A DNA stretch of 24,117 bases from positions 1-24,117 of IMG/VR virus record IMGVR_UViG_3300000595_000005; one strand, written 5' to 3'. Positions within the stretch are counted from its first letter, which is position 1; each line of letters begins with the position of its first letter. This DNA comes from a virus. A program made the position numbers and the translations under genes. This document shows positions 1 to 21,787 of the stretch, in pieces. The notes beneath the pieces are model-generated. The model searched no databases. It was not told the origin of the DNA and worked only from the letters and a program-made list of their open reading frames with translations.

Positions 1-1032
1 GTCATTAACGCCACCCATTATTATAACATATTCTCCGCCCGCCCCTGATACTTCCGTAAACCTTGCGGACATCCCACGAGCCTGGTTGCCGGAAATGCCC
101 ATATTAACTACGGTCCATGTAGTGCCAAGCAATGAACTTAGCTGACTTTGGTAATAGCCAAGGTTTGTTAGACTATCGCCCATTGTGTATATGGTGTGAT
201 CTCGTTTAACCATCGTCGGTGTAGTGCTATTCAATGTTGGAAAAGGTAGCGTTGATATAGGCACAGCCTGTACCCTCCCGCTAAATGCCGTACCTGGGCT
301 AACTAGTATATTGCTATATGTGCCGCCATTATATGGTTGAATGTTAATGTTTGGATAAAACAAATCACTTGCTAACGTTAAATTCCCAGATATTGTGCCA
401 CCAGTTAAGGGAAGGTAAGTCGATAAATCAGTTAATCTAACAACATCGTTAGGATTAGTTGGTACATTATCAACTTGTGCTGCATGTACGCTTAACAATG
501 AATCGATGAAATTCATCGAGTTATTGTTGTTACCTATGTTTTGCAACGAGATTCTATTTGAATCTATAGTTATTTGTGATATACCTTCCTTTATAGCCAC
601 CTTTCCATTGAATACTAGATAATTGTAATGACCTAATCCTGGGCCAAGGTTATCCCATGTGAATGTTGCGTTCAATCCCGAATTTCCGGGATTTTTGAAC
701 GTTGTAGTATTCTTAAACTCCCAACTCCCGCCTATCGTATTATTCCCATGATTAAACTGCCAAGGGCTTATATAGTTGCTTGACGAATCGGCCTTTGCAA
801 TGTAAAAACGCCTCAAATATTTACTATAAACAACTGCATCATACTTTTGAGTTGATGGGTTGTAGACGTAGGTTACTCGGTAATTTACGCCACCATTGTT
901 GAAAATGTTTGGAATAAATTGTGGGCTGAAAGTTGGCGAAGCGGTTATCCGTGTCGTATCGTTTACCGCGTTTATTTGCCCTGATACTTTAAGGCTTAGA
1001 AATACTGTGAGGATTAATAGCAGTTTCTTCAT
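1..1032 (-). CDS. Secreted tail-fibre-like protein with SGNH/GDSL hydrolase domain (partial, C-terminus beyond window)
   Basis: Reading from ATG at 1032, the frame stays open for 344 codons to the window edge, so the C-terminus is missing. Residues 1-19 (MKKLLLILTVFLSLKVSGQ) look like a Sec signal peptide without a lipobox cysteine. The middle holds the phage tail motif YLPLTGGTISGNLTL, typical of tail-fibre and collar proteins. The end has SGNH-hydrolase blocks: GDSL at 285-288 (Ser287 the likely nucleophile), a block II-like glycine in NMGISGN (310-316) and GVND at 341-344 (block III GxND). The block V Asp/His would lie outside the window. SGNH enzymes are esterases or deacetylases, often acting on O-acetylated glycans; here the target could be a capsular or cell-wall polysaccharide. 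A signal peptide on a tail-type protein is odd and may instead mean it is exported by the host. Domain assignment is firm; role is inferred. Confidence 0.85.
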   Translation of the reverse strand, partial: MKKLLLILTVFLSLKVSGQINAVNDTTRITASPTFSPQFIPNIFNNGGVNYRVTYVYNPSTQKYDAVVYSKYLRRFYIAKADSSSNYISPWQFNHGNNTIGGSWEFKNTTTFKNPGNSGLNATFTWDNLGPGLGHYNYLVFNGKVAIKEGISQITIDSNRISLQNIGNNNNSMNFIDSLLSVHAAQVDNVPTNPNDVVRLTDLSTYLPLTGGTISGNLTLASDLFYPNINIQPYNGGTYSNILVSPGTAFSGRVQAVPISTLPFPTLNSTTPTMVKRDHTIYTMGDSLTNLGYYQSQLSSLLGTTWTVVNMGISGNQARGMSARFTEVSGAGGEYVIIMGGVND

Positions 1033-1078
1033 TTGAAGCACTTTTAATTTTTCTATAAAAGTACATCAAATACTATAA

Positions 1079-1624
1079 TTATTTACTATCTGTTAATTTA
1101 ATTCCTTCACTTACCCAACTATGATCTTGTATTAACCTATAAGTTCTTACTATTGCAAAATTGATTAATTTAAAATAACTTATCTTAATTCCATATTTGC
1201 TCATGTCTTGTATTTTTGACATTATATGCGTTTCAATCACCGCTGGATTAATTGTTAGAATATCATTTGTGAAAATATAATCAGATAATTCCCCCATCAC
1301 CATATTTGAAATAGTTTGTTCAGGGTAAAGCATGTTGTTATATAATAATTCAATATCTATTATCTCATATCCCATACACCCATTTACAGTAACGGTTTTA
1401 ATGTCTTTTGATGTTAGAGTTTGCATAGGCATACTTACAACACGCAACCTGCTACATTGAATGTAAAAGTTATCAAGCAATGGTATGCGAAAATGAAGTC
1501 CACCTTTCAATAATTTTTGATTTTTACCAAAACGAACCCTTATAGCTTGCTCCCATGGTTGAACTATAATCCAAAACTTAAATACGTTTAGGATGTAATC
1601 TAAAAACTCTTTTATGCTTCCCAT
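1079..1624 (-). CDS. SPFH/band-7 (stomatin/prohibitin-like) domain protein
   Basis: 181 aa. After a hydrophobic N-terminal stretch (about residues 8-21, FLDYILNVFKFWII) comes a recognisable SPFH domain: VQPWEQAIRVRFGK (21-34), GGLHFRIPLLD (41-51), then MQTLTSKDIKTVTVNG (67-82) followed by a Y-x-I-x-D-like strand, and the YGIKIS turn near 144-149 corresponding to the usual GIxV motif. SPFH proteins such as HflK, HflC, stomatin and prohibitin oligomerise on membranes and organise or regulate proteases and channels. This one is short and lacks the long C-terminal coiled coil of HflK/HflC, so it is close to a bare domain with a membrane anchor. It lies between small hypothetical genes and the SGNH protein, downstream of the tail genes. 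Family assignment is good; function in a phage is unknown, possibly interaction with host FtsH/HflKC or membrane remodelling. Confidence 0.8.
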   Translation of the reverse strand: MGSIKEFLDYILNVFKFWIIVQPWEQAIRVRFGKNQKLLKGGLHFRIPLLDNFYIQCSRLRVVSMPMQTLTSKDIKTVTVNGCMGYEIIDIELLYNNMLYPEQTISNMVMGELSDYIFTNDILTINPAVIETHIMSKIQDMSKYGIKISYFKLINFAIVRTYRLIQDHSWVSEGIKLTDSK

Positions 1625-1684
1625 TTTTTTAAATGATTATATACTATTTGTTTGAGCCGTTCTGTTTTTAAAATCATTTGGCTT

Positions 1685-2857: not shown

Positions 2858-3250
2858 CTACGGATTAATTACAAATGAGTACCCATCAACAAAATGCCCT
2901 GCTCCGTCATCGGGTTGCGAAATAGTAAATCCCGTTCCTGTCCATTGAACAAATAGGGTCCAGTCATAGCTTCCATCACTTGTTTTAACGGCTATATAAC
3001 GGGGGGCGGTTGCGCTTGTATAAGGAATAGTTAAGGGAGTGTTTGTTACCCCTGCAACTATTGTGTGCGCATCAGGGGCGGCGTTTGATTGAATCCAATA
3101 ATCTAAATCAGCCCATAAACCGGGGCCGACTTTAAAGTTTTTAATATCAGTTGATAGAGCGGCCTCACCGTCTGCAATCATAGGATTAACATACGCCCAT
3201 GTCGCCTCTACGTCTCGCCTCAATAATACAACTCCGTTTACTGTTATCAT
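2858..3250 (-). CDS. Mtd_N-like tail protein (tail fibre/receptor-binding type N-terminal fold)
   Basis: About 130 aa from ATG 3250, which shares a base with the upstream stop (TAATG), a coupling arrangement that favours this start over a TTG at 3301. The N-terminal half (MITVNGVVLLRRDVEATW..NPMIADGE.ALSTD...KVGPG.WADLDYW) follows the pattern RR-x-W-x-x-x-NP-x-L-x-x-GE-x-x-x-x-x-D-x-x-x-x-K-x-G-x-G common to many phage tail fibres and major tropism determinant N-termini. The second half has a beta-rich segment with Ser, Thr and Gly (YIAVKTSDGSYDWTLFVQWTGTGF). It probably sits at the tail tip or anchors fibres. It is the last gene of the main tail operon, just before a terminator. Family assignment is by motif pattern. 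Confidence 0.65.
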   Translation of the reverse strand: MITVNGVVLLRRDVEATWAYVNPMIADGEAALSTDIKNFKVGPGLWADLDYWIQSNAAPDAHTIVAGVTNTPLTIPYTSATAPRYIAVKTSDGSYDWTLFVQWTGTGFTISQPDDGAGHFVDGYSFVINP

Positions 3251-3816
3251 TAGTTTGCTTGCATTATTATTAGTGGTGTGCTTTGTATTGCATGTCCGCA
3301 ATCAATCGTATCAAATCTCAAAACACTATAAATTCCGGGTGCCTCAACATTTGCAATCAAGTCCCCGAATTGGTCTATTATCTCAACTGATAAGCCTAAC
3401 GGGGGTAAGGGATTAGTGTTTACCTTAACTAAATCCCCATCCCCTAAAAGAGTCCCTTTAAAAAGGGATAAAGCGTCAAATTGTGAGGATATATTAACGT
3501 TAGTGACTAATATTGTACCGCTCCATTCAATCTCATTGTTGTCAGTAAAAACAAAAGGTAATTTAACCCCGTTAAGTATGCAGTCTTGAAAATCACCAAC
3601 GTTTGCAGGGTCAACAAAATTAGTTATGCCGTCTAATTGCAACGTATAACTGTATTTACCTTGATAGTTATTTGATTTTCCTTTTCGGCTGTCCTTTGTG
3701 GTTGTTTCCTCTACGTCTGCTGTGAGGTCTAAAACTACGTTAGTAGCATGAGCGGCAACCGATAAGTGATCCCTTAAAGGAAAATAAATATCTAAGTTTT
3801 TACCCGCTAATAACAT
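3250..3816 (-). CDS. Tail-tube-like (TP901-1 major tail protein type) distal tail protein
   Basis: 188 aa. The region LDLTADVEETTTKDSRKGKS followed by YSYTLQLDGI matches the usual major-tail-protein core, in which a strand ending E-x-T-x-K-D-S is followed by a second strand ...S-x-x-D-G. A later stretch, FKGTLLGDGDLVKVN, suits the closing part of that fold. The C-terminal 50 residues (LGLSVEIIDQFGDLIANVEAPG...) look like an added small beta domain. A separate major tail protein already exists at 9256-9705, so this second copy probably works at the distal tail, as an adaptor or baseplate ring. It is coupled by TAATG to the Mtd_N-like gene. Fold assignment is a motif-level inference. Confidence 0.55.
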   Translation of the reverse strand: MLLAGKNLDIYFPLRDHLSVAAHATNVVLDLTADVEETTTKDSRKGKSNNYQGKYSYTLQLDGITNFVDPANVGDFQDCILNGVKLPFVFTDNNEIEWSGTILVTNVNISSQFDALSLFKGTLLGDGDLVKVNTNPLPPLGLSVEIIDQFGDLIANVEAPGIYSVLRFDTIDCGHAIQSTPLIIMQAN

Positions 3817-12232: not shown

Positions 12233-13165
12233 TTATTTAATAAAGTCCTCCACCCATTCATTTAACACTTTAACACGCGGTAATGGGTCAAGTTCTTTCG
12301 CCCTTGTAAGACACAAATTACGATGAAAATTATAAACCTGATTGTCTCCCATTAATTCAACTATTGTATTTTTGTATAAAAGTAATTGATTTTTATTAAT
12401 ATAGATACCAGCATACGAAAGATTTTCCCGTAACCCCGGTAAATCGCTGCAAATTACAGGTATTCCACAACACGCCGCCTCGGTTGCAACTTGACTCCAG
12501 CTTTCAGTTTCGGATGGCACTAATAGCACTCCAATTTCACCCCAATCAATCACACCGTTTTCTTTCCACTCTATATTTTCAACTTCGGGGGTTATTTGTT
12601 CGCCGTAACCGCCCTTATAACCCACAAAGCTGACCTGTGGGAGCATTTTAGCTAATTCGATGAACTCATACACCCCTTTGTTTTGATTGCAGTTTATAAG
12701 GGCTATTTTGCGGCCATTTGAAACTTTGTAATCCCGGTAATTAATTATTGGCTGTAAAACGGTTGATTTATTATTAGGGTAAAGATTTAAAGCGGCTAAA
12801 TGGTTTGAGTTGTAAATAATTCCGGTCGTATTTGATGCGAAATAATGCTTACTTGAATTGTGGCAAATATTAATGTCCTTTTTTTTGTGCTGTTTTGCTT
12901 TATTGTAAGAATATGCGTTGCCTAACAACTGCCCTATGATTAAATCACACCATTCAAACAGGTCGTTATTTGTTTTCCAAATGTTTTCCATTTTGCCAAT
13001 CGGGTAAACTTCTATGCCATGATAGGTGTACGGTTCTTTTGTTGCAGCAATACATTTTATTTCGTGTCCGTAGGTTTGGAGTTGCTTGCATAGGTTTAAT
13101 AGGTAATGTTCGCCGCCAGCGCTCTGAAATGGCATCCAGTTAAATGGAACTATTATAATTTTCAA
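12233..13165 (-). CDS. Glycosyltransferase, GT4 family (GT-B fold)
   Basis: 310 aa from a TTG start at 13165 (MKIIIVPFNW...), which overlaps the exonuclease gene by 26 bases; no ATG lies close upstream in this frame, and an internal ATG at 13135 would remove the first strand. Motifs: N-terminal Gly pair SAGGEHYL (15-22) of the acceptor domain, and in the C-terminal nucleotide-sugar domain the retaining GT4 E-x7-E pair E221 and E229 in PSETESWSQVATEAA, followed by CGIPVICSDLPGLREN. It is shorter than typical GT4 enzymes (350-400 aa), with a compact C-terminal domain. It transfers a sugar from an NDP- or GDP-sugar; acceptor unknown. With the three-module GT and methyltransferase nearby it likely works on the same glycan. 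Confidence 0.85.
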   Translation of the reverse strand: MKIIIVPFNWMPFQSAGGEHYLLNLCKQLQTYGHEIKCIAATKEPYTYHGIEVYPIGKMENIWKTNNDLFEWCDLIIGQLLGNAYSYNKAKQHKKKDINICHNSSKHYFASNTTGIIYNSNHLAALNLYPNNKSTVLQPIINYRDYKVSNGRKIALINCNQNKGVYEFIELAKMLPQVSFVGYKGGYGEQITPEVENIEWKENGVIDWGEIGVLLVPSETESWSQVATEAACCGIPVICSDLPGLRENLSYAGIYINKNQLLLYKNTIVELMGDNQVYNFHRNLCLTRAKELDPLPRVKVLNEWVEDFIK

Positions 13166-13778
13166 ATGGTTTGTATTTAGGATTTAAATATTTAAACAAT
13201 TCATAATTCCATTTAGCATCTGCAAGTGCATTATGTTCGTTTTGTTCTTTAGGATATCTTTTTGATGCTTTAGCCATTTCTAAATCTTTTTCAAAGCTAT
13301 GAACAGGTAATGATTTAACCTTTTCATCTAACATTTGCTTTAAGTCAATGCAATACATTGGAAATCCTTTAGGTAAATCAATCATTCTACCGAACAGCGA
13401 ACAAAATACCACCCAATCGTAATCTGCGTAATAAGCGTAAAATTCCGGACTCATCTTTTGTGGTTCATTGGGCCAAGATATTTCCACAAAATCAATAATG
13501 TCTTTTGCAATCTGAGCATTCGATTTATACAGAAGTCCATTTTGCCTTAGACGTGGACTATCATAAAAAGATGTCGCTTTTTGCTCTAATTTATTGATGA
13601 CATTTTCAATAACCCATTTATCCGCATCTTTAGCATTAAATTCGTTACTTATAGCGTAATAAGTTCGGCCATCTTCGGCAATTATACCGATGCTAATCAA
13701 ATCAATAAAGTGGCTTCGCTTGCCAAATAATGGTTTTCTAAATCCTTCAATAAATTCAGTGTCAAAAAAGTATTTCAT
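13140..13778 (-). CDS. DEDDh 3'-5' exonuclease (Rv2179c-like exoribonuclease type)
   Basis: 212 aa. The N-terminal motif FFDTEF gives D6 and E8 of Exo I. The block FIDLISIGIIAEDGRTYYAISNEFN is the characteristic second strand pair of the Rv2179c-like exoribonuclease family. FYAYYADYDWVVFCSLFGRM contains the third acidic residue (D121, or D119), and EHNALADAKWN provides H182 and D187. All catalytic residues are present, so it should be active on RNA or DNA 3' ends. The start ATG overlaps the upstream stop as ATGA. It is an unexpected nuclease inside a structural gene region; no partner suggests a repair or replication role, so nucleotide scavenging or RNA decay during infection are guesses. 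Confidence 0.85.
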   Translation of the reverse strand: MKYFFDTEFIEGFRKPLFGKRSHFIDLISIGIIAEDGRTYYAISNEFNAKDADKWVIENVINKLEQKATSFYDSPRLRQNGLLYKSNAQIAKDIIDFVEISWPNEPQKMSPEFYAYYADYDWVVFCSLFGRMIDLPKGFPMYCIDLKQMLDEKVKSLPVHSFEKDLEMAKASKRYPKEQNEHNALADAKWNYELFKYLNPKYKPFENYNSSI

Positions 13779-14065
13779 AATAGTGATTTTAAAATGTTTG
13801 TTACTTTATCTAATTCTTTCGGTTTTTCGGGTTGAGTTGGAACATCGAAACAATAAACATTTGTTAGATTAATTTCGACATTCAATTTAGTCCCATTTCT
13901 TTTCGCTGTTCTTATAGCCAATAATGCAAAGGCTATGGCATTAGTTAAGTTTGGTACACGCTGTAAATAAATAGTCGGTATAGGCTCAAAAACAGGCATT
14001 TCTTCGGCTTCAATAACTTCCGGTTCAATGACTATTAATTGAGTTGACTTTTTACGGCGTTTCAT
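13775..14065 (-). CDS. Hypothetical 96-aa protein with basic start and acidic stretch
   Basis: MKRRKKSTQLIVIEPEVIEAEEMPVFEPIP: a very basic N-terminus followed by an acidic, Pro-containing stretch that is probably unstructured. The second half has a helix TNAIAFALLAIRTAKRNGTKLNV and a beta segment ITNVYCFDVP-like before an acidic/Lys C-terminal helix. It overlaps the preceding gene by 14 bases and the exonuclease start by ATGA. No family recognised. It could be an adaptor or RNA-binding protein of the nuclease, but that is only proximity. Confidence 0.6.
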   Translation of the reverse strand: MKRRKKSTQLIVIEPEVIEAEEMPVFEPIPTIYLQRVPNLTNAIAFALLAIRTAKRNGTKLNVEINLTNVYCFDVPTQPEKPKELDKVTNILKSLL

Positions 14066-14396
14066 AATTATTTCGATATTTTATTTTACCACTTGAAATA
14101 TTCATGAAACCACCCCAAGGATATGGGTGTGTTTTTAGTTTTTGGATCCCATCATTTAGGCATTTATCTAAATCTGTATAATAATCAGATTTAAAATCGG
14201 TAGCGTCATCAAATACAACGTGGTATTGATAATATTTTTCTCCATGGATATCATATGAAAAAACCGATACAAATGATAAATTTCTTACTATAAAAGAAGC
14301 CTCACTTCTAAATTGTATTTGTAATTTGTGAATTAAATAATATATTTTATGATTTATATTGAAAATTCTACTAATGAAATTACCTTGTTTTTTCAT
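14052..14396 (-). CDS. Hypothetical 114-aa protein
   Basis: Starts in an ATGA overlap with the stop of the large glycosyltransferase gene. The N-terminal half (FISRIFNINHKIYYLIHKLQIQF) is helical and aromatic-rich; the second half (YYQYHVVFDDATDFKSDYYTDLDKCLNDGIQKLKTHPYPWGG) has a strand followed by a helix. The pattern resembles small single-domain proteins such as those with a double-stranded beta/helix fold, but no family is recognised. Coding is supported by the overlap chain. Confidence 0.6.
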   Translation of the reverse strand: MKKQGNFISRIFNINHKIYYLIHKLQIQFRSEASFIVRNLSFVSVFSYDIHGEKYYQYHVVFDDATDFKSDYYTDLDKCLNDGIQKLKTHPYPWGGFMNISSGKIKYRNNYETP

Positions 14397-16306
14397 ATTT
14401 GGTAAATGAATTTATTATTTGTAAATAAATAGTCTGAATATTCAAAATCGCGCTCTCCCCAAATGCCGCGTTTATAAATATGGACATTACATTTTAACGG
14501 CATCAATTCAAGCAAGTAATTTAATGAACTATTGCTAATGTGTAATTCATGTGCAAGTTCAACAACTCCCAACCAATCAATTAAAGTGAAGCCGGGTATA
14601 ATTCTCATTTCAATTACCCTGTGTTCACCGCTATAATTAATTGTTGATTTCATGCCCCTTGACTGTTCTCCAAAGTCCCTATTTATTAAAACATAATCTC
14701 CTGTAGCTCCAACCAATTGTTTTAATTCATTTTCCTTATCGCTAAACCTTGAATAAGTCAATCCGCGCCACATTAAATGTGAATGCCCATACAAATCATA
14801 TTTATCTCGCATCATTGTCCTAAAACCGTGTCCTAAAATTTCAGATGCAAATCTGTACGGCAACATTCGGCCAAATTGAGTTTCAACAATTCCCTTTGTT
14901 TCGTATGGTAAAAAATGGTAGTCACTTTTTTTAACCATGTTTAAATCTGGGAAATGTTTAGCGATATTAAAATAATGGTCTGCTATCGGCCATAAACAAG
15001 TGTTTCCCTCTTGCATTAAAGCCCGTACCATTGGGACTAAAAAAAGTATATCCCCCAAACCTTGAAACTGATTGATAATATATTTGGTTGTTTTAATTGG
15101 CTTGGCCGGTACTACACGCGGTCTATTCCCGTGTACCCCGAATTGATTAGATAATGTCTTGGTAGGCTGCAAATACCCCTCAAAACTAAATTTTTCCGCT
15201 ACTTCAATAGGTGCAAATTTTATTCCGTATGTTTTTTCAAGGTACGGACGATATGTACGGCAAATGTGGTGGTCTTCCGGATGCTGTATTTGAATGTTTT
15301 TATCGGTTGCGACTATTTCCATCAACCTGCGCGACCTTAAACTAAATCCACCATTACCAACTGCCATTCCATCGTTATAATGCCACGGTGCGCCGATGTA
15401 ATCATATTGCAGCCAATCGTTATCCCATGCTTGCCAATTATTCACGTACCCGTCATGTTGGCAAATGAGCATGTGAGATGTATTGACGTGCTTGTATAGT
15501 TCTTCAATGCAAAACTTACTATAGGCTTCTTTGCTATTTATAGGCTCGTGTAACAACTTTACTTCGCCAAACCTAATCCACTTCTTGCAAATATCGATCG
15601 CGTGCTGTAGGCGTTCTATTTGGCTGTCAACCCCTATTAATGTAACTGTAGGTAAATCCCAATAGTAAAAATCATCGGCAACGTCCGGGGCTTCATTATG
15701 GTTCATTGAACTGTCAAAGCCTATGTGTTGTATAACTGATTCTTTCAGACAGTATGCAAACCCGACATTAATACACGCGTTGTGATCCCAATTTCCGGGG
15801 GATAGTAAGGCTGGTTTTACGTAGGTTTCATACACAGGCTTACTAATACACATATTTATTCCGCCAACAGACTGCTTTAAGTACTGATTGTGGTATTCAT
15901 CAATTATTTTATGGCGTTCAGTTCCGTTAGCGTTTAACGTAGTGCAATGAAATCCTGTAAGGATACCACCGTTATAAACTTCTAAAAGCCTTTCCACAAA
16001 ATCAGGCCTTACTATTGCATCACTGTCAAGGTTAATAACTATGTCTATGCCACTATCAAAAAGCATTTCATAGCCATATAATAGCGCCCTTTTAATACCT
16101 CCGTTTTCTTTGAATTGATAAGTATGTTTATTACTATGTGGCTGTGAAAAATTATCTATTAATTTTAATACTTCACTATCAGTAGATGCATCATCAATAA
16201 ATAATATTTCTTTTACTTTTGATAAATCAGCCCTTTCTAAAGACCAAAGGCATTGACGTAAATATTCCGGACGGTTAAATGTTGTTAGTAAAATTGCGAC
16301 TTTCAT
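14393..16306 (-). CDS. Three-module glycosyltransferase: GT2 + DUF5672-like + C-terminal GT-like domain
   Basis: 637 aa. Module 1 (1 to about 210) is a GT-A/GT2 enzyme: ILLTTFNRPEYLRQCL, FIDDAS (36-41) and the metal-binding DSD (94-96) in VINLDSDAIV. Module 2 (about 220-395) matches the DUF5672 pattern: ICQHDGYVNN (281-290), YDYIGAPW (301-308), VGNGGFSLRS (316-325) and FGVHG (389-393), seen in sugar-transfer proteins of Bacteroidota and phages. Module 3 (about 405-637) begins IINQFQGLGDILFLVPMVRAL, the opening of GT9/ADP-heptose-type transferases, followed by WPIADHYFNIAKHFPDL. Such a fusion could add two or more sugars in sequence. The start ATG overlaps a 38-aa gene's stop. Module 2 and 3 assignments are by pattern; acceptor unknown. 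Confidence 0.8.
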   Translation of the reverse strand: MKVAILLTTFNRPEYLRQCLWSLERADLSKVKEILFIDDASTDSEVLKLIDNFSQPHSNKHTYQFKENGGIKRALLYGYEMLFDSGIDIVINLDSDAIVRPDFVERLLEVYNGGILTGFHCTTLNANGTERHKIIDEYHNQYLKQSVGGINMCISKPVYETYVKPALLSPGNWDHNACINVGFAYCLKESVIQHIGFDSSMNHNEAPDVADDFYYWDLPTVTLIGVDSQIERLQHAIDICKKWIRFGEVKLLHEPINSKEAYSKFCIEELYKHVNTSHMLICQHDGYVNNWQAWDNDWLQYDYIGAPWHYNDGMAVGNGGFSLRSRRLMEIVATDKNIQIQHPEDHHICRTYRPYLEKTYGIKFAPIEVAEKFSFEGYLQPTKTLSNQFGVHGNRPRVVPAKPIKTTKYIINQFQGLGDILFLVPMVRALMQEGNTCLWPIADHYFNIAKHFPDLNMVKKSDYHFLPYETKGIVETQFGRMLPYRFASEILGHGFRTMMRDKYDLYGHSHLMWRGLTYSRFSDKENELKQLVGATGDYVLINRDFGEQSRGMKSTINYSGEHRVIEMRIIPGFTLIDWLGVVELAHELHISNSSLNYLLELMPLKCNVHIYKRGIWGERDFEYSDYLFTNNKFIYQI

Positions 16307-16419
16307 ATTTTCCTATAACGTTTTAATTTAAAAAGCATTTTAAAGCAAAATGGCATGACATATTCACACCAAAAAAACATAAATATAATCCATGTTAAAA
16401 TTAGTAAAGCTACTTTCAT
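16303..16419 (-). CDS. Tiny single-helix membrane protein (38 aa)
   Basis: From ATG 16419: MKVALLILTWIIFMFFWCEY, then a polar end with KMLFKLKRYRKI. A single hydrophobic helix followed by a basic tail points to an N-out/C-in membrane peptide. Both ends overlap neighbours by ATGA (16416-16419 with the 80-aa gene, 16303-16306 with the three-module glycosyltransferase), which is strong circumstantial evidence that it is translated. It may anchor or regulate the glycosyltransferase at the membrane; that is inference. Confidence 0.55.
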   Translation of the reverse strand: MKVALLILTWIIFMFFWCEYVMPFCFKMLFKLKRYRKI

Positions 16420-16658
16420 AAATTAACCAAATTTACAAGTAATGTAATTGAAACTTCTGCAATGCCATTGTGATTAATATTGTTAACCAATGTCAGTTTA
16501 GTTTGACCGGGTATTTCTTCGCCATTTGGCATTATTACAGTTACAAACCTTTTATCGTTTTTTATGCCGCATAAAACCTTATTGTTGGGTTTATCAGGAA
16601 ACGTAACTCCGAATTTATATATCATCCAAAGAATGAATGAATTGATTGCTTTTTTCAT
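16416..16658 (-). CDS. Hypothetical 80-aa protein
   Basis: MKKAINSFILWMIYKFGVTFPDKPNN...: a hydrophobic stretch near 5-18 that could be a short membrane anchor or signal-like helix, then a beta-rich part (VLCGIKNDKRFVTVIMPNGEEIPG, TKLTLVNNIN...EVSITLLVNLVNL). Overlaps the upstream methyltransferase gene by ATGA and the 38-aa gene downstream. No family recognised; the second half looks like a small beta domain. Confidence 0.6.
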   Translation of the reverse strand: MKKAINSFILWMIYKFGVTFPDKPNNKVLCGIKNDKRFVTVIMPNGEEIPGQTKLTLVNNINHNGIAEVSITLLVNLVNL

Positions 16659-17479
16659 TTTGGCCTATCCTTCCCAAATAACAAATCTAATTGCTCCTCT
16701 CTTGATAGTTCATCAACTTCACTCATGCTAATAAACGAATCGTAGTTTAAATATCCCGCTATTTTCTTTGCTTTCGCCGTTTCTTCGTGAAATACATTAT
16801 CAGCAACATAATGCCCTATTGGTATATCTCCAAATTGATTTTGGTTTTCGGGTGTTACTTTTGTGAATGATGGCTTATCTTTTACAGGGTAATGTTCTTT
16901 TGGAATATCTTCGTTTATTACGCCTTTTTTTACACATTCATCATATGCCCTGTTTTTTGCTATTATTCGGTCGCTAACTTTTTCACAAATAACAACAAAG
17001 CTATGATTCCAGTCACACCCCGAAACGTAAACTTTATGTCCTAAATCATTTAGGTAGGTTTCAATTTCGCTTTCATCAAGTGTGTGAACGTGTTTCCTAT
17101 TGCTTGACGGGTGCCAATAGCTTTGCGAACTGTGGGGTAAATAAAGAAACAGAATACCGCCGACTTTAATTTTACTCAACCAATAATCTAAAACATCATA
17201 AACGTTTGCTTTTACATGTTCTAAACAATGGCTTGAAAATATATAATCGACTTGATTATTTGGCAATCTCATAGCGTCCCAATTAGGGTCAATTGACGGC
17301 TCTATACCTATTGCTCCCGGCAACATCCATGCTTCTTTTGAATAGCCAATATCATACCCCACATTACGTTCAGGGTCAAGTATGTGTTTAGCTAATGGCA
17401 ATATCCACCTTGCAGCGTTGCCCTCACTTTCCCATTTAGGATATTTATTGCCGTTATGAGTTATAAAATCTAATCCCAT
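16655..17479 (-). CDS. Class I SAM-dependent methyltransferase
   Basis: 274 aa. Rossmann-type methyltransferase core: motif I VGYDIGY (40-46), second strand acidic PGAIGIEPS (54-62), DYIFSSHCLEHV (78-89) as the usual D-x-I-x-S-x-x-x-x-E-H segment of Methyltransf_11-type enzymes, and KVGGILFLYLP (105-115). The lead-in YPKWESEGNAARWILPLAKHIL is shared with methyltransferases found in sugar-modification clusters and phages. The last about 100 residues (from DRIIAKNRAYDECV) form an added helical, charged region with no recognised function. Likely O- or N-methylates a sugar, consistent with the nearby glycosyltransferases, though a protein substrate cannot be excluded. One base separates it from the tiny gene upstream. 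Confidence 0.8.
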   Translation of the reverse strand: MGLDFITHNGNKYPKWESEGNAARWILPLAKHILDPERNVGYDIGYSKEAWMLPGAIGIEPSIDPNWDAMRLPNNQVDYIFSSHCLEHVKANVYDVLDYWLSKIKVGGILFLYLPHSSQSYWHPSSNRKHVHTLDESEIETYLNDLGHKVYVSGCDWNHSFVVICEKVSDRIIAKNRAYDECVKKGVINEDIPKEHYPVKDKPSFTKVTPENQNQFGDIPIGHYVADNVFHEETAKAKKIAGYLNYDSFISMSEVDELSREEQLDLLFGKDRPK

Positions 17480-20312: not shown

Positions 20313-20333
20313 CCTAATTTATTTTAAATTAAT

Positions 20334-20486
20334 ATGTGTAAGTATAAAGTACAGGCATACGACATTTCCAAAAAGGCAAAAGAGGCTATTGAAAAGCTAT
20401 GTAAAGAGGAACAAAGGTCGGAAAGTTTCATTATCAGCCGGATATTAAACAAGATGTTTGACCCTATAACTGAAAAGTCAAAATGA
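20334..20486 (+). CDS. Ribbon-helix-helix-like small protein (50 aa)
   Basis: MCKYKVQAYDISKKAKEAIEKLCKEEQRSESFIISRILNKMFDP...: a beta strand (YKVQAYDIS), helix 1 (KKAKEAIEKLCKEEQ), a turn with RSES and helix 2 (FIISRILNKMF), the layout of RHH/Arc-type DNA-binding proteins. It is the first ORF of the plus-strand cassette, directly behind a promoter candidate, so it could autoregulate this operon. Its TGA overlaps the ATG of the next ORF (ATGA at 20483-20486). It differs in sequence from the minus-strand RHH-like protein at 17579-17764. Assignment is by secondary-structure pattern. Confidence 0.65.
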   Translation: MCKYKVQAYDISKKAKEAIEKLCKEEQRSESFIISRILNKMFDPITEKSK

Positions 20487-20671
20487 GTGAAGTTAGTCCC
20501 CAAAATAAATGTATTGAAATAACTGTTTCGCTATGGAATGAGTTTTGCAATATTGAAAACCTACATCCAAGTGATAAACATGAATTTTGCCATCATTTAC
20601 ATTGCTTACAAAATTTACTATATGCCCATAAGTATAAAATTGAAATACCAAATAACACAATGTTAAAATGA
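20483..20671 (+). CDS. Hypothetical 62-aa protein
   Basis: MSEVSPQNKCIEITVSLWNEFCNIENLHPSDKHEFCHHLHCLQNLLYAHKYKIEIPNNTMLK. Rich in His and Cys (four Cys, six His), which might bind metal, with helical segments. No recognised family. Coupled to both neighbours by ATGA overlaps (20483-20486 and 20668-20671). Confidence 0.6.
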   Translation: MSEVSPQNKCIEITVSLWNEFCNIENLHPSDKHEFCHHLHCLQNLLYAHKYKIEIPNNTMLK

Positions 20672-20868
20672 ACGAAACAAACTTTATTGACGGTTTAAGA
20701 ACTTACTATATTGAATTGATTTCAAAAGCTACATGCGATTGTGTTAAGGTGATAATTAGCAAAACTGAAATCCAATACATATTGGATATAATTTCAATTT
20801 TTAAATTTAAGTGCCAACCGTATCAATTGGGTAGCGATTTACTTTGTCTTGATATTTACATAAAATGA
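20668..20868 (+). CDS. Hypothetical 66-aa protein
   Basis: MNETNFIDGLRTYYIELISKATCDCVKVIISKTEIQYILDIISIFKFKCQPYQLGSDLLCLDIYIK. Mixed helix and strand, with C-D-C in the middle and further cysteines near the end. No recognised family or membrane helix. Overlaps neighbours by ATGA on both sides. Confidence 0.6.
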   Translation: MNETNFIDGLRTYYIELISKATCDCVKVIISKTEIQYILDIISIFKFKCQPYQLGSDLLCLDIYIK

Positions 20869-21098
20869 GCGAATTAATAGGTAAGCGAATAAACATTTAC
20901 GAAGTTGTTAAAAACCGAAAGATGCATTCTTGGATGGGTGATGAATCTCCCGGAAAAATAGGCGAACAAATCCCGGCATTGCTGTATTGTAAAAATCAAT
21001 ATGGCACATATTGTCATTGGAATTTAGAATTTGAATATCGAAACGATATGCATTGCCTTAAAAAAGTTGGCACAATGATTATTAAATCAATAAAATGA
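20865..21098 (+). CDS. Hypothetical 77-aa protein
   Basis: MSELIGKRINIYEVVKNRKMHSWMGDESPGKIGEQIPALLYCKNQYGTYCHWNLEFEYRNDMHCLKKVGTMIIKSIK. Predominantly beta with aromatic residues, like a small barrel-type domain. No recognised family. ATGA overlaps at 20865-20868 and 21095-21098. Confidence 0.6.
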   Translation: MSELIGKRINIYEVVKNRKMHSWMGDESPGKIGEQIPALLYCKNQYGTYCHWNLEFEYRNDMHCLKKVGTMIIKSIK

Positions 21099-21454
21099 AA
21101 AAAGTAGCATGGTGGCATCCTGTCCCCCAAAACCAATTACAGGATATTATTAAAGATGAAAGCATGCAATTGCGTTTTAAATTTGATGAAGTATTAAGAT
21201 TGGCGGTTGAACAATATTTAGGCCGTTATTTTAATCCTGAATTAGATGCAAAAAGAATTGAACTTCAAATCATTCAAGGCAACGATAAAACAAACGTATT
21301 GATTGATGGGTTATTAATTGGCAGTATAAGGCAATTTGTAGATTATAACAATGATGACTTCATACAAAACAACATAACAATTGCAATTGTATTCACACCA
21401 AACATAGAATTAATTCACCACAATGAAAATAACATTCACACAGCCACATCTTAA
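21095..21454 (+). CDS. Hypothetical 119-aa protein
   Basis: The largest ORF of the cassette. Opens MKKVAWWHPVPQNQLQDIIKDE, then a helical part with EVLRLAVEQYLGRYF and a strand-rich half (RIELQIIQGNDKTNVLIDGLLIGSIRQF) ending in a His/Asn-rich tail. No signal peptide or membrane segment. No family recognised. Overlaps the next ORF by 32 bases, the largest overlap in this cassette. Confidence 0.6.
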   Translation: MKKVAWWHPVPQNQLQDIIKDESMQLRFKFDEVLRLAVEQYLGRYFNPELDAKRIELQIIQGNDKTNVLIDGLLIGSIRQFVDYNNDDFIQNNITIAIVFTPNIELIHHNENNIHTATS

Positions 21455-21611
21455 CTACTCAATAGGGGATAGTATAGACGTATCAATTGAACAGGCAAAA
21501 TATTTTGAAAGAATGGGTATTGCTGAAATTTCAAGCGACGAAAACGAAATTGATTTAGATATTCAAAGCGATGAACCTAAAAGGCGTGGGCGTAAACCTA
21601 ATACTAAATGA
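21423..21611 (+). CDS. Small head-region accessory protein of the GD-x-A-x-x-G type
   Basis: 62 aa: MKITFTQPHLNYSIGDSIDVSIEQAKYFERMGIAEISSDENEID... matches the pattern of small phage proteins that read Y-x-x-G-D-x-V-x-V-x-x-x-x-A-x-x-x-x-x-x-G-V-A-E, commonly found next to head genes. The C-terminus (KRRGRKPNTK) is basic with an AT-hook-like RGRKP, which could bind AT-rich DNA. Its stop overlaps the ATG of the following ORF. Family pattern is good, function unknown. Confidence 0.65.
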   Translation: MKITFTQPHLNYSIGDSIDVSIEQAKYFERMGIAEISSDENEIDLDIQSDEPKRRGRKPNTK

Positions 21612-21787
21612 GTTACGATGCAATCATAGATGCTTTATCTCAATTAAAGCAGTATAATCACCAACCAAGTTTTATCTATTTACTTCATCCATATGATTTT
21701 AAGCGTATTCACGTAAATAAAGTTTCAATATACTTTATGAAGCTAATTAAACGTAATAGAAAATTACGGAATAATGGTTTTATTTAA
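21608..21787 (+). CDS. Hypothetical 59-aa basic protein, last of the plus-strand cassette
   Basis: ATG 21608 overlaps the preceding stop by ATGA. MSYDAIIDALSQLKQYNHQPSFIYLLHPYDFKRIHVNKVSIYFMKLIKRNRKLRNNGFI: helical start, then a strongly basic C-terminus (KLIKRNRKLRNN). It runs 8 bases into the end of the convergent gpF-like gene at 21780. No family recognised. Very likely real because of the unbroken coupling chain. Confidence 0.55.
   Translation: MSYDAIIDALSQLKQYNHQPSFIYLLHPYDFKRIHVNKVSIYFMKLIKRNRKLRNNGFI

Follow-up and report, generated by a model that had tools for sequence, protein, structure and literature searches.

The question raised by this locus is why a phage would carry a gene for a lone, short SPFH/band-7 protein, and what such a protein could do in the cell that it infects. 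The gene lies at 1079..1624 on the minus strand of the window, the whole 24,117-nucleotide stretch analysed here (a 24-kb virus record), and encodes 181 aa from an ATG start; its product is referred to below as mini-SPFH. The window also carries portal, MuF, S78 prohead protease and HK97-type capsid genes, which together with the virus record confirm the phage origin assumed in the original prediction. Because the portal resembles those of Cellulophaga phages, the host is likely to belong to the Bacteroidota.

We found that the motifs from which an SPFH/band-7 domain had been proposed, IVQPWEQAIRVRFGK, GLHFRIP, TLTSKDIKTVTVNG and YGIKI, are all present in the open reading frame. Residues 20-153 match Pfam Band_7 (PF01145, E=4.8e-13), with a score of 50 bits that is about twice the 23.6-bit cut-off and places the protein in the superfamily. 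A profile of four relatives searched against the PDB found stomatin as the best sequence match (9.5e-10), along with QmcA (3e-6). The structure prediction that had been called for recovered the SPFH fold rather than a model lacking it: AlphaFold, run from a 63-sequence alignment, returned SPFH1 plus SPFH2 with a mean pLDDT of 90.7. When this model was compared with the PDB by Foldseek, HflC (4e-13), stomatin, QmcA and prohibitin were matched at 4e-13 to 2e-10, and erlin and flotillin were also among the fold matches.

The anatomy of the protein was delimited from the AlphaFold secondary structure and the family alignment, with SPFH1 at about residues 18-75 and SPFH2 at about residues 76-156. 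In front of them, residues 2-15 (coding 1580..1621, minus strand; helix 2-14 in the AlphaFold model) form an amphipathic N-helix at the place where cellular SPFH proteins have a TM or hairpin segment. The hydrophobic moment of residues 2-17 was above that of shuffles in 86% of 63 relatives. The maximum KD19 is 1.1 in the window protein, with a median of 1.07 and a value of at most 1.8 among the 63 relatives, whereas 11 of 12 full-length comparators have a KD19 of 1.5-3.0. Thus the N-terminal TM or intramembrane segment of cage-forming SPFH proteins is absent, and so are their CC1/CC2 coiled coil and C-terminal cap; the missing long coiled-coil end, remarked on from the sequence at the outset, is real and common to the family.

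Where cellular SPFH proteins begin CC1 stands instead a conserved tail, FAIVRTYRLIQDHSW (residues 156-170, coding 1115..1159, minus strand), with the family consensus FAxVRTYRLIQDxSW. Its conservation by region, a mean of 3.08 bits per column, is second only to that of residues 17-25 (3.4 bits), and W18, P23, W24 and the tail are the most conserved parts of the protein. R163 is invariant in 63/63 members, in both branches of the family, and G145 is likewise invariant in the 63-member alignment. The pLDDT drops in the tail to 73 and then to 58, so that the monomer model is uncertain there. The pattern of conservation suggests an interface rather than a ragged end.

We sought to establish how widely this short form occurs, since the original prediction had proposed a search for the same gene in other phages. 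IMG/VR relatives numbered 3, then 17, then 103 as the query profile grew, the last figure coming from one scan of the collection. Nearly all complete relatives are 176-187 aa long, a few are 157-169 aa with uncertain starts, and essentially all end 20-28 residues past SPFH2, as does the window protein at about 25 aa. The window protein has the features that define the family: a length of about 180 aa, no coil, a tail of the form [VI][RK][TS][YF]R[LI]I, and carriage by a phage. Where it was measurable, dN/dS was 0.09-0.19, synonymous sites being otherwise near saturation, and the gene is under purifying selection. An artefact of truncation or frameshift was ruled out by the constant length and tail across phages and by the next gene, which starts 37 bp further downstream and encodes a signal peptide of its own.

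Among isolated phages the family is scarcely visible. In tblastn searches of a collection of 50,697 phage records, the window protein found nothing better than E=0.2 and the relative L028 had no match. The best matches of a relative from a more distant branch (L066) in the phage collection included MW202733, a podovirus of metagenomic origin that encodes a short 'prohibitin-like protein', and BFVD held one similar entry of 173 aa, named HflK (A0A6J7WFI0). It was noted that the MW202733 coding sequence (L117:4001-4543) is annotated from an internal start, and that the open frame extends further upstream to give a longer SPFH domain. No paper on this short family was found among open-licence PMC papers; phage SPFH genes appear there in lists (PMC1524935, PMC10892097, PMC13239085, PMC7289586, PMC13384950).

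The surroundings of the gene in the window were then examined. The 60-bp intergenic stretch upstream (1625..1684) contains no TAnnTTTG box, and promoter-like matches within it were no commoner than in shuffles. Downstream, the product of 1-1041 (minus strand), a gene cut by the contig end, has a signal peptide, fibre-like sequence and a C-terminal GDSL/SGNH-like start. A secreted hydrolase had been proposed as a neighbour; the signal peptide bears out secretion, but the hydrolase assignment is weak, the C-terminal part being GDSL lipase-like at E=7e-5, below the Pfam cut-off. The neighbouring small proteins had been described as membrane-sized; among them, a hydrophobic appearance is seen for the 54-aa ORF (2134-2298) alone. 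The product of 2858-3253 (minus strand) is Mtd_N / tail-spike-like in its N-terminal region (phrog_27786, 3.5e-8) and is probably a tail fibre head piece. Farther along, 12233-17479 (minus strand) holds a GT4-type glycosyltransferase, a DEDDh-like exoribonuclease, a 637-aa GT2+DUF5672 protein and a methyltransferase-like protein. This block separates the capsid gene from the head-tail genes, an unusual location for genes of sugar modification in a genome of siphovirus-like type. At 20324-21787 (plus strand), a run of small ORFs separates the MuF/portal genes from the prohead protease and is opposed to the direction of the structural genes.

Across phages, the carrier loci fall into at least 53 groups, loci of different groups not having three or more other genes in common, and the SPFH gene is common to all groups by selection of the loci. 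The next most shared gene family was found in 7 of the 53 groups at most, at scattered offsets, and thus the gene has no fixed partner; its orientation nearly always matches that of the neighbouring genes. A fixed operon partner of the NfeD-like, protease or toxin-antitoxin kind was rejected for the same reason. When the full records behind the nearest relatives (L005, L023 and L024) were compared with the window, two of the three gave one DNA match each, and in both cases this sole match was exactly the mini-SPFH gene, at 69% and 73% identity. The family is therefore carried by many otherwise unrelated phages, mostly of Bacteroidota, and this widespread, phage-restricted and single-gene-mobile family is the main point, one that the original prediction had missed.

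The adjoining genes differ from locus to locus: terminase, helicase, methyltransferase, 7-deazaguanine, GroEL and uncharacterised genes all occur. Several individual neighbours were noted. A strong homologue of Tad6, a type I Thoeris inhibitor, is encoded two genes away in one phage (L040:10786-11394); co-travel with Tad6 was rejected, as it occurs in 1 of 50 carrier records. QueE-like genes adjoin the mini-SPFH gene in two loci (L064:3510-4187 and L080:1373-2203), accompanied in the former by QueC, pointing to 7-deazaguanine modification of DNA in the phages concerned. A phage-encoded GroEL-like chaperonin lies two genes upstream in another (L044:8044-9657). Membership of a defence system was rejected, as no PADLOC family was matched.

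The restriction of the short form to phages was evident from host genomes. SPFH (Band_7) genes were found in 59 of 61 Bacteroidota genomes, and among the matches listed the sole frame below 243 aa was a prophage copy (a 188-aa frame with a 180-aa protein) in the genome G001. This copy, from a Muricauda and included in the family as L022, adjoins a tyrosine integrase, beyond which lie ordinary chromosomal genes. In a profile search of 395 Bacteroidota genomes it was recovered at 2e-89, while the other matches were to frames of 312-348 aa only, with E no better than 1e-17. At E<=1e-15 the mini form was thus present in 1/395 genomes, namely the seed itself, and the gene is therefore rare in host chromosomes.

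In phylogenetic trees, a supported branch (100/96) set all mini forms apart from the comparison set, which comprised 18-19 cellular SPFH proteins and 3 full-length ones from phages, and the support was 99/98 after E. coli HflK and QmcA were added and four odd rows removed. The full-length phage proteins branched with the cellular ones. The cellular sample was mainly of Bacteroidota and domain-length, MW202733 and HflK formed long branches and the root was not inferred; the topology is compatible with one origin of the mini forms. The fold, family, length, mobility, phage restriction and absence of coil and TM segment are settled by this analysis.

We propose, with a probability of about 0.4, that mini-SPFH is a phage-specific minimal SPFH protein, carried as mobile single-gene cargo, that acts on cytoplasm-facing SPFH assemblies of the host or on their clients. 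The protein would be made in the infected cell and would attach to the inner membrane from the cytoplasmic side by means of its N-helix and the hydrophobic face of SPFH1. It should face the cytoplasm and not the periplasm because it has no TM segment or signal peptide. SPFH proteins are anchored in the membrane by hydrophobic residues of SPFH1 and contact one another laterally through SPFH1/2, and the sealed wall of the cage consists of CC1 helices (PMC12624060). Mini-SPFH may pack side by side with SPFH domains of its own kind or of host stomatin/QmcA-like proteins. Because CC1, CC2 and the cap are missing, it is not expected to close a cage, and its conserved tail may instead bind a partner or an adjacent subunit. 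Most probably, mini-SPFH would act by capping or opening the membrane SPFH enclosures of the host, or by competing with them; stomatin is known to enclose membrane proteins such as aquaporin-1 (PMC12407830). The membrane proteins so freed or shielded could be proteases, phage membrane proteins or membrane defences. Phages may in this way disturb the membrane scaffolds of the host or turn them to their own use.

The abundance of possible host SPFH targets, present in nearly all of the 61 genomes, is counted in favour of this proposal. Against it, the tail could merely complete the domain fold in a multimer, the lack of a fixed partner also fits a generic moron whose target has nothing to do with host SPFH, and HflKC-FtsH, the best-known link between phages and SPFH proteins, lies on the opposite membrane face. 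More broadly, and tentatively, these genes may represent a mobile class of phage SPFH protein that lost cage-building, gained a tail, and either opens, caps or poisons host SPFH enclosures or makes a platform of its own.

The second of these options, that mini-SPFH forms its own open ring or patch in the membrane and leaves host SPFH complexes untouched, is considered less likely. Such a platform has been proposed here to protect phage membrane proteins, to hold DNA replication or packaging at the membrane, or to act in superinfection exclusion. SPFH1 and SPFH2, which make the lateral contacts in known rings (PMC12624060), are both kept, and the mini forms stand apart from the sampled cellular SPFH proteins and need not co-assemble with them. 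However, much of the contact area in solved assemblies is contributed by CC1/CC2, which are absent here, and although terminase or replication genes are often neighbours, the variable position of the gene indicates no fixed link to packaging or replication. A counter-defence protein directed against a membrane-acting immune system is unlikely; moving as a single gene among unrelated phages is what anti-defence genes typically do, and the nearby Tad6 and QueC/QueE genes fit this picture, but Tad6 is confined to a single record, PADLOC gave no match and there is no general anti-defence island around mini-SPFH.

The mechanism first suggested for this locus, interference with HflK/C control of FtsH that would alter the lysis-lysogeny decision or membrane proteostasis, fared poorly and is now considered quite improbable. 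Foldseek does find HflC and HflK chains, the NCBIfam hflK and hflC models match below threshold, and some carriers are temperate, with the gene adjoining an integrase. However, the scores fall about 100 bits short of the equivalog cut-offs (TIGR01933 for HflK, 37.5 against 159.4 bits; TIGR01932 for HflC, 32.6 against 134.4 bits), and the phage forms do not group with E. coli HflK, itself a long branch in the tree. HflK/C, as well as the FtsH domain that they contact, are periplasmic (PMC12048511), and mini-SPFH, with no TM or signal sequence, would be on the wrong side of the membrane. HflK/C-FtsH is therefore the least favoured target. Finally, that the gene is a remnant of an SPFH gene captured from a host, either neutral or in decay, is barely conceivable. 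All other cellular SPFH frames among those listed are longer, but this explanation is already contradicted: across at least 53 phage groups the length is constant, certain residues are invariant, dN/dS is low and the tail is phage-specific.

SPFH proteins occur almost universally, and for most of those in bacteria no function has been settled. A selected, lone-gene phage version marks host SPFH biology, or its membrane sites, as repeatedly worth manipulating, and a natural coil-less SPFH core of 180 residues is useful for asking what SPFH1/2 alone can do.

Mini-SPFH resembles stomatin, QmcA and prohibitin in its SPFH1+SPFH2 fold and its membrane-proximal hydrophobic SPFH1, and differs from them in lacking the TM segment or intramembrane hairpin and the cage-forming parts, in its length (about 180 aa compared to 240-690 aa) and in its phage-specific tail. 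With HflK/HflC it shares the superfamily but not the TM helix. Among phage-encoded SPFH proteins, PHROG 200, named 'lipoprotein', is similar to some members weakly and partially (0.02 to 2e-10), although its profile of 379 positions is about twice as long and phrog_200 did not match the window protein at E<1. The full-length Band-7/prohibitin proteins of the phages Skarpretter (283 aa), Fnu1 (269 aa) and OLIVR1 are also phage-encoded SPFH proteins, but have a TM segment and a coiled coil. Similar single entries are A0A6J7WFI0, to which the fold match reached TM 0.82, and the MW202733 protein, encoded directly downstream of terminase; both are short, coil-less phage SPFH proteins that differ in bearing automatic names only and, for MW202733, in forming a very long branch. 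As far as we found, entries of this type had not been recognised as a family before.
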